Source: Guyparkeria sp. SCN-R1
Lineage (GTDB): Bacteria; Pseudomonadota; Gammaproteobacteria; Halothiobacillales; Halothiobacillaceae
NCBI RefSeq assembly: GCF_003932495.1
Contig: NZ_QZMT01000012.1
Location: 1-64,000 of the forward strand
DNA length: 64,000 nt
Reading direction: 5' to 3'
The notes under the pieces are model-generated. The model ran no database searches and had not been told where the DNA came from. It saw nothing but the letters and a program-made list of their open reading frames with translations. This document shows, in pieces, positions 18,246 through 34,867 of the stretch (position 1 is the stretch's first letter; every line of letters begins with the position of its first letter). The position numbers and the translations under genes were made by a program.

Positions 18246-18568
18246 CGACCGGGAAACGCGACCCCACGGATCGGATCGAATCGCTTGGGAAACTCTGCAC
18301 GAATGGCATGCCACTCTGGCTAGGCGAGCCGTTCGTGATCAAGGCGCGTCGTCGCCGGCGTGCCGGTGGTCACGTCAAGACGACGCAACACCGAGCACGG
18401 GCGGCTCGACTGGTCCCACAGGGCGCGCCTTGAGCCGGGCATCTGCTGCGTTGTCGTCCTTGGAAAGAGAACGACTCTTCCGGCGGCGGACGAGCGCCTT
18501 GCACCTGCCCGGCTCAAGGCACGCAGAGCGGCATGCCATTCGTGCAGAGTTTTCCCTAGAATGAGGCG
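18246..18568. other. Spacer between rlmH and maf, mostly occupied by a repeat element
   Basis: 323 bases without a gene. Apart from about 40 bases after the rlmH stop, the spacer is the repeat element at 18287-18556. Only 12 bases separate that element from the maf ATG, so it either forms the maf leader or carries its promoter. Confidence 0.6.
18287..18556. repeat. Structured inverted-repeat element, copy A (about 270 bp)
   Basis: The termini are a near-perfect inverted repeat of 26-27 bp (18287-18312 and 18530-18556), beginning GGGAAACTCTGCACG, with one extra A on the right. Inside are two stem arms. Arm 1: CGAGCCG 18325-18331 with CGGCTCG 18402-18408, plus CGTG/CACG, enclosing an 8-bp inner stem 18346-18353 with 18379-18386. 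Arm 2: a perfect 15-bp stem 18427-18441 with 18506-18520, enclosing TCGTCC/GGACGA and a GGAA.GAG/CTCTTCC tip. Unpaired parts of arm 2 (read on the minus strand) include TGCAAGGCGC, GTCCGCCG, CAACGC and GCAGA, shared with copy B. It resembles a small non-autonomous mobile element. Confidence 0.85.
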
Positions 18569-34471: not shown

Positions 34472-34867
34472 GGCGTTCTATCCGATTGGCATTCGACGGC
34501 CATGTGGACTACAAGTTAGCCGGCTAAGGAAACTCTGCGCGGTTCGATGACGTCTCTGCGGAACCTCCAAGGGCTCAGATGCAAGGCGCAAGTCCGCCGT
34601 GAAGGGCCGTCGCCCTTTACAAGGTCTGCAACGCCGCAGATGGGCCCTTGGAGGTCCGCCCGGACGGGGCTTGCGGGTTTGTCCGCACTCGGCGTTGCCG
34701 TCCCTCGACGGGCAACGAGCCCGTCTTCGGTCCGGCGCCTGGATTGCGAACAAACCCGCGAGCCAGAGATGCCATCGAACCGTGCAGAGTTTCCTCAACA
34801 AATTCTTTTGCCGGCCCCGGATTCGATTACGTGCCGGTGTCGGCGGTCATAACGTCTTCGAGGTTCC
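34472..34867. other. Spacer upstream of the ene-reductase, mostly a repeat element
   Basis: 396 bases without a gene. Repeat copy B (34528-34794) takes up two-thirds. The 73 bases between it and the ene-reductase start are AT-richer (AACAAATTCTTTTG) and may hold the promoter, although no clear hexamer pair is seen. Confidence 0.5.
34528..34794. repeat. Structured inverted-repeat element, copy B (about 267 bp)
   Basis: Terminal inverted repeats of 31 bp (34528-34558 and 34764-34794) match at 28 positions and begin GGAAACTCTGC. Arm 2-type: 15-bp stem 34563-34577 with 34641-34655 (one G-T pair), core GATGCAAGGCGC and GTCCGCCG, tip AAGGGC/GCCCTT, then AAGG, CAACGC and GCAGA. Arm 1-type: GCGGGTTTGT 34673-34682 with ACAAACCCGC 34750-34759, plus CGCA/TGCG. 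The arms occur in the opposite order to copy A, so the element is inverted relative to it. Left flank CTAA; no exact target duplication remains. Confidence 0.85.

Follow-up and report, generated by a model that had tools for sequence, protein, structure and literature searches.

Two MITEs in a Guyparkeria genome carry a hairpin core that recurs across bacterial phyla, apparently as a folded single strand

A structured, non-coding repeat occurs twice in the window analysed here, a 64,000-nt stretch of the Guyparkeria sp. SCN-R1 genome, and it raises the question of what kind of element this is, how it moves, and for what its folded arms are kept. An earlier note on this DNA placed one copy at 18287-18556, 12 bp upstream of maf, and suggested a non-autonomous mobile element, a transposition substrate folded as single-stranded DNA (ssDNA), or a leader RNA for maf. 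Both copies are present, with exact limits, fixed on the sequence, of 18288-18555 for copy A, and with copy B at 34528-34794. Copy A is flanked by CTTG and CTAG and has rlmH (SPOUT methyltransferase, Pfam PF02590) on one side and on the other maf (Pfam Maf, PF02545), whose ATG is separated from the end of the element by 13 bp rather than 12. Copy B is flanked by CTAA and TCAA and is located ahead of an Oxidored_FMN gene. We consider it highly probable that copies A and B are MITEs moved by an IS5-type transposase, with interchangeable ends and a core that is a pan-bacterial single-strand hairpin module.

The full-length element is 264-269 nt long and consists, in order, of an end (31 bp), arm 1, a short GCCC-n-GGGC spacer, arm 2 in the opposite orientation, and the other end. 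In copy A, the left terminal inverted repeat (18288-18318, plus strand) begins with GGAAACTCTGC and is followed by the arm 2 hairpin module at 18321-18412 (core sense on the plus strand, ATCAAGGCGC...GCAACACCGAG), the arm 1 hairpin module at 18427-18520 (core sense on the minus strand) and the right terminal inverted repeat at 18525-18555 (minus strand), which has one extra A. Arm 1 of this copy is matched at 103.3 bits (E 1.3e-21) by R1, the covariance model that was derived from 14 arm 1 sequences. In copy B, comparison of the end sequences places the left terminal inverted repeat at 34528-34558 (plus strand) and the right at 34764-34794 (minus strand); between them lie the arm 1 hairpin module at 34563-34655 (core sense on the plus strand, R1 93.6 bits, E 3.3e-19) and, from the arm alignment, the arm 2 hairpin module at 34671-34761 (core sense on the minus strand). 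The terminal repeats of both copies are 31-32 nt long and 91-94% complementary. That the two copies keep the same plan, as had been claimed, is borne out by an element-sense alignment, in which stems change on both sides and loops are fixed. What had been missed is that arm 1 and arm 2 are one module of ~92 nt, repeated inverted. Its outer part is made of stem P1 (~15 bp), the bulge AAG, GCG/CGC and the opposite-strand bulge CAA, and its inner part of stem P3 (6-7 bp), an internal loop of GC[AC] versus AA, and an apical hairpin.

The likeness of the two copies is not due to chance, since exact GGAAACTCTGC sites number 28 in the 2.42-Mb genome versus 1 for a reversed control, and most are paired, 264-267 nt apart, as whole elements. 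The proposed covariance model search of the genome and its relatives was productive as well: R1 has 47 matches in this genome at E<=2.5e-13, with weaker ones besides, and is matched in 10 of the 11 genus genomes (7 to 92 copies each), in 19/27 family genomes, more sparsely in the sister genus, and in 92/369 class genomes. Most of the 30 copies whose gene context was read lie between called genes (26/30), and 3/30 overlap a called gene. The same genome also has truncated copies (68, 92 and 191 nt) whose ends are nearly intact. Elements with ends kept and arms lost were also seen at L013 1501-1592, L024 1501-1568, L028 1420-1511 and L255 1468-1515.

When the genus was searched with the joined flanks of copy A, an uninterrupted TTAG was found between rlmH and maf in five relatives; genome G001 reads ...GGTCGAATCGTTAGAATGAAACGATGACACC... 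at this position, and G003 and G004 likewise have TTAG. The filled site, the one insertion site compared, reads CTTG-element-CTAG, with the left target duplication at 18284-18287 (CTTG, where the ancestral target in relatives is TTAG) and the right at 18556-18559 (CTAG). The corresponding 4-mers of copy B are CTAA (34524-34527) and TCAA (34795-34798). Because the relatives keep the empty site, copy A is a clean insertion with target duplication and not a maf leader; the suggestion of a leader RNA, and with it that of a cis-regulatory leader, was rejected on maf genes of relatives that have no element upstream and on other copies that adjoin unrelated genes. The insertion target of copy A is TTAGAATG, just 5' of maf (window 18556-18565), and TAGAAT, a possible -10 box, is restored at the right border. 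Across 41 elements, the flanking 4-mer is YTAR in 18 cases on the left and 17 on the right and is identical on both sides in 9/41, the commonest pairs being CTAG/CTAG (5) and TTAG/TTAG (3). Judged by these flanks, insertion duplicates a 4-bp YTAR target, a behaviour shared with IS5-group elements and MITEPsy1. The earlier proposal of a non-autonomous mobile element is thus upheld by dispersed copies, 31-bp inverted ends, the YTAR duplication and the empty sites. The element, with the size, non-coding nature, dispersed copies and terminal inverted repeats of a MITE, is one by every criterion tested, and the novelty lies in its conserved cross-phylum core.

The fold of the arms is recorded in their substitutions. 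Among the 14 copies of arm 1, 96.8% of cells are paired and 17/34 pairs have changed on both sides, giving a covariation of 0.451 versus 0.188 (sd 0.016) in shuffled and <=0.112 in slid alignments; arm 2 gives 0.404 versus 0.166 shuffled, so that the early impression of covarying stems around fixed loops holds for both arms. The unpaired core of the arm is CAAGGCG / GC[AC]G / CAAG / CAACGC. A scan with the exact pattern TGCAAGGCGN{34,46}CAACGCNGCAGATG, which fixes part of the core by design, returned at least 119 stretches where our own estimate of chance expectation is about 0.4, and covariance model matches picked independently of this pattern carry the same core. Among the matches listed are Streptomyces, Lachnospiraceae, Faecalibacterium, Neisseria, Acidobacteria, Planctomycetes, Omnitrophota, Elusimicrobia, Desulfobacterales, Myxococcota, Verrucomicrobia, MAGs of Bacteroidota, and others. 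The core-bearing repeats mostly have inverted ends starting CTAG, TAGG or TAGT and are ~166, ~191 or ~267 nt long, in both single-arm and double-arm forms, with 16 to 67 copies per genome in the Omnitrophota, planctomycetes and deltaproteobacteria. In 78 distinct arms from many phyla, aligned by fitting to the covariance model, which favours the structure, 91.6% of cells are paired, double changes number 747 versus 247 shuffled, and covariation is 0.632 versus 0.150 shuffled and <=0.078 slid. Every Watson-Crick type is seen at the outer-stem pairs across these arms, and GCG/CGC, the AAG and CAA bulges and the CAAG/GCAG loop are almost invariant. These comparisons show one module, multicopy in about a dozen phyla, whose unpaired letters are kept while its stems are rewritten and its ends are unrelated or lack any long repeat; it is therefore the module that is inherited, whereas the ends seem to be exchangeable. 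A BLAST search of plasmids with copy B gave no match, and one with a Streptomyces copy hit 30 Streptomyces plasmids, with no mobile-element name among the features listed. Spread by viruses was set aside, with one match only in 2.9 million viral contigs.

The state in which the arm is folded can be read from its imperfect pairs, because a single-strand fold tolerates G-U but not A-C, and duplex DNA treats the two equally. In the arms of 41 elements from Guyparkeria and its family, G-U outnumbers A-C by 86 to 27 (p=2e-8), whereas those elements' terminal repeats have 47 and 41 (p=0.59). The bias recurs in dereplicated cross-phylum arms (95:11 and 36:11 at Watson-Crick-majority pairs), in Omnitrophota arms (53:15) and in a mixed planctomycete and deltaproteobacterial set (22:1), all of these being counts over copies that share ancestry, with shared positions counted, and the cross-phylum ones over model-fitted alignments. 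Since the excess of G-U is found in the arms and not in the ends, the comparison shows that what has been conserved in the arm is one strand of fixed polarity, folded on itself as RNA or ssDNA, and the terminal repeats are, on the same count, kept as duplex. The earlier view of selection on a folded form, as DNA cruciform or RNA, therefore stands as to the fold and falls as to a double-stranded cruciform (86:27).

In the mechanism that we propose, the exposed strand would fold and be bound by a putative widespread protein or machinery that aids the spread or persistence of the repeat, and, with the arms inverted, either DNA strand would carry one functional arm, as would a transcript entering from whichever side. 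To judge from the repeats themselves, the bound strand has about an even chance of being ssDNA, and the chance that it is RNA is appreciable and somewhat short of even. The orientation of TIR-less copies bears on this choice. In two Omnitrophota genomes, nearly all of the 40 copies read are extended beyond the element by 7-10 bp of pairing peculiar to each copy, and 16/40 face a tRNA gene within 2-13 nt (L371, L376, L341-L380). In all 16 cases the tRNA is located 3' of the core, as read on the core strand; 13 of these copies are antisense to their tRNA and 3 sense. A 17th tRNA, at a distance of 32 nt, is 5' of a copy that faces another tRNA, and at L371 and L376 a tRNA-Gly gene is sandwiched by two arms, both facing it.

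The strongest rival takes the module to act as RNA: the sense arm, transcribed from a host promoter, would bind RNA polymerase, the ribosome or an RNase and shield the host, as insulator, antiterminator or stabiliser. G-U makes up about 9% of paired cells, far above A-C, which keeps RNA a strong rival; frequent G-A mismatches beside the core, the intergenic position of most copies, and the A-tract/T-tract flanks of some lineages, like those of bidirectional terminators, also speak for it. Against it, single-arm copies have no sense preference relative to neighbouring genes (10 same, 15 opposite), and 13/16 Omnitrophota copies with a tRNA on their 3' side are antisense to that tRNA. A bias in orientation to host transcription, seen in a first count (31 opposite, 12 same), was dropped at 15:10 for one-arm copies alone. 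Since single-arm copies are not biased to gene sense and double-arm copies offer one hairpin per strand, we lean slightly to ssDNA, as exposed in replication or repair, and regard the shielding RNA as a tentative alternative with a sizeable minority of the probability.

It is also conceivable, although improbable, that the covariation is mutational, with hairpins perfected by replication template switching and only the ends selected, for transposition. Omnitrophota and planctomycete copies with copy-specific outer stems of 7-10 bp suit such a process, as does L376, where the far flank of the copy at 401-491 repeats the tRNA-Gly 3' end in inverted orientation, a footprint like that of a template switch. 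Template switching should, however, erase bulges, which are the best conserved part of the arm, and it cannot yield a bias of G-U over A-C that is present in the arms and absent from the ends. A purely mutational correction fails on these two points, the persisting bulges and the bias confined to arms. Because the outer stems in Omnitrophota are copy-specific, part of the stem covariation could nevertheless come from one hairpin arm being copied onto the other. Copy-specific inverted flanks of 7-10 bp outside TIR-less hairpins are also seen in L292-L318; flanks of this kind could arise by template switching at the foot of the hairpin.

Returning to the MITE reading, a ~266-nt unit with 31-bp inverted ends has inserted at YTAR with a 4-bp duplication and is dispersed by the tens through Guyparkeria genomes, its ends probably borrowed from whichever IS5-type element is present. 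No DDE_Tnp_1 (PF01609) gene was found in the whole Guyparkeria genome, and only 1/11 genomes of the genus has such a gene; the mobiliser is for this reason deduced from the ends, the target and other genomes. The sister genus has IS5-type insertion sequences (ISs) whose ends include GGAAGGTCTGATCAATT and GGGAACCTCTGATTGAAT and whose flanks are TTAA, CTAG or CTAA, their ends being like those of the MITE, not identical. In a Neisseria MAG, an 877-bp IS that begins with CTAGGGCTTCCTGACAATTA and encodes a transposase with DUF4096 and DDE_Tnp_1 (PF01609) is located precisely where a ~175-bp one-arm MITE ends in CTAG, and the two have 16 bp of end and CTAG in common. In Streptomyces and gammaproteobacterial genomes PF01609 ISs are present, none with the resident MITE's own ends, and in three Lachnospiraceae genomes the search for an autonomous partner gave lone ends and no transposase in the neighbouring ORFs read. 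On these ends and targets we infer that copies A and B were probably moved in trans by an IS5-type DDE transposase reading the ends. An arm was looked for in the Neisseria 877-bp IS and the other ISs scanned, and none was found, so the transposase should not need the core. A transposition substrate folded as ssDNA, as suggested earlier, is conceivable for the arms; the IS5-type partner in Neisseria has none.

Least probable of all, and very unlikely in our judgement, is that the arms are REP/REPIN-like and mobilised by a Y1 (RAYT/IS200-type) transposase on folded ssDNA: two inverted hairpins resemble a REPIN, the Guyparkeria genome has three Y1_Tnp matches and copy-rich genomes often carry Y1 genes, but none of the arm copies is close to the Y1 genes examined, some of which are bounded by another short repeat, genomes G003, G004, G012 and G020 have arms without Y1, the GTAG/CGTC foot is missing, and a 4-bp duplication with 31-bp ends suits a DDE transposase. 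RAYT/Y1 mobilisation was accordingly rejected on the distribution and on the different repeats flanking Y1 genes. At L245, L246 and L250, RAYT-like Y1 genes are flanked by runs of the short palindromic repeats GGACCGCGGAGTTGCACTCCGCG / GGCGAGTGCAACTCGCC, a separate REP-like family beside a glmS-like gene, and at L244, in the genome of copies A and B, a partly duplicated Y1 transposase gene is bounded by AAAAGGGGTCAGAACC-type repeats.

Among 4227 Rfam families none matched the element, whether in the window or at 16 loci of other lineages, and a search of the open-access literature by sequence strings and concepts found no description of the hairpin core, in agreement with the earlier failure to match it to a named family. 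At L108 2196-2292, the Faecalibacterium contig that holds an element copy also has a skipping-rope RNA (RF02924), unrelated in structure. MITEs are usually viewed as transient derivatives that arise by deletion from one insertion sequence and stay within a lineage. Integron attC sites are folded single strands with extrahelical bases, recognised by structure, and the arm is likewise a folded single strand with extrahelical bases; unlike attC, it has no GTTRRRY/RYYYAAC boxes, its conserved AAC stands opposite an unpaired AAG, and its copies are dispersed. With GTTRRRY missing opposite AAC in the aligned arms, the attC reading was rejected, and so was a bulge-helix-bulge reading, for which matching boxes or an enzyme are lacking. 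CORE-SINEs of animals, retrotransposons with a conserved central domain and interchangeable mobilising parts, offer an analogy only, being unrelated in sequence and mechanism. Correia/NEMIS and ERIC are small, folded, non-autonomous, intergenic repeats, each of which, like QMITE1/QMITE2, is to our knowledge found in one lineage. QMITE1/QMITE2 share the same four traits with the element (PMC5896051). As far as checked, its core is in none of these families. MITEPsy1 of Pseudomonas syringae, 100 nt long and judged to be derived from ISPsy2, resembles the element in its ends (GGAAGGTCTG.../GGAAACTCTG...), its 4-bp CTAG or YTAA/YTAR duplication and its movement in trans, but no conserved hairpin core is described for it (PMC3189936). 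REPs and REPINs with their RAYTs share with the element intergenic hairpins, often as inverted pairs, in many copies and many phyla (PMC3733652). REPs are, however, 20-40 bp with a GTAG or CGTC foot (PMC3733652), and the element has ~92-nt arms, four conserved unpaired motifs and, in most lineages, DDE-type ends; a 20-40 bp hairpin with such a foot beside a RAYT was not found, and identity with REP/REPIN was rejected.

We give roughly even odds to the fullest reading of these data, an undescribed pan-bacterial mobile module: a ~92-nt bulged hairpin of fixed single-strand polarity recognised by a conserved candidate partner present throughout Bacteria, repeatedly built into MITEs with different ends and either a single arm or an inverted pair, and placed in Omnitrophota next to tRNA genes, towards which its 3' side points. 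A MITE core kept over about a dozen phyla while stems and ends are replaced would imply an unnamed conserved partner, present in organisms as unlike as Streptomyces, gut Lachnospiraceae, Neisseria and Omnitrophota. The core may serve as a defined bait for this partner, and with the covariance model a common class of intergenic repeats can be annotated.
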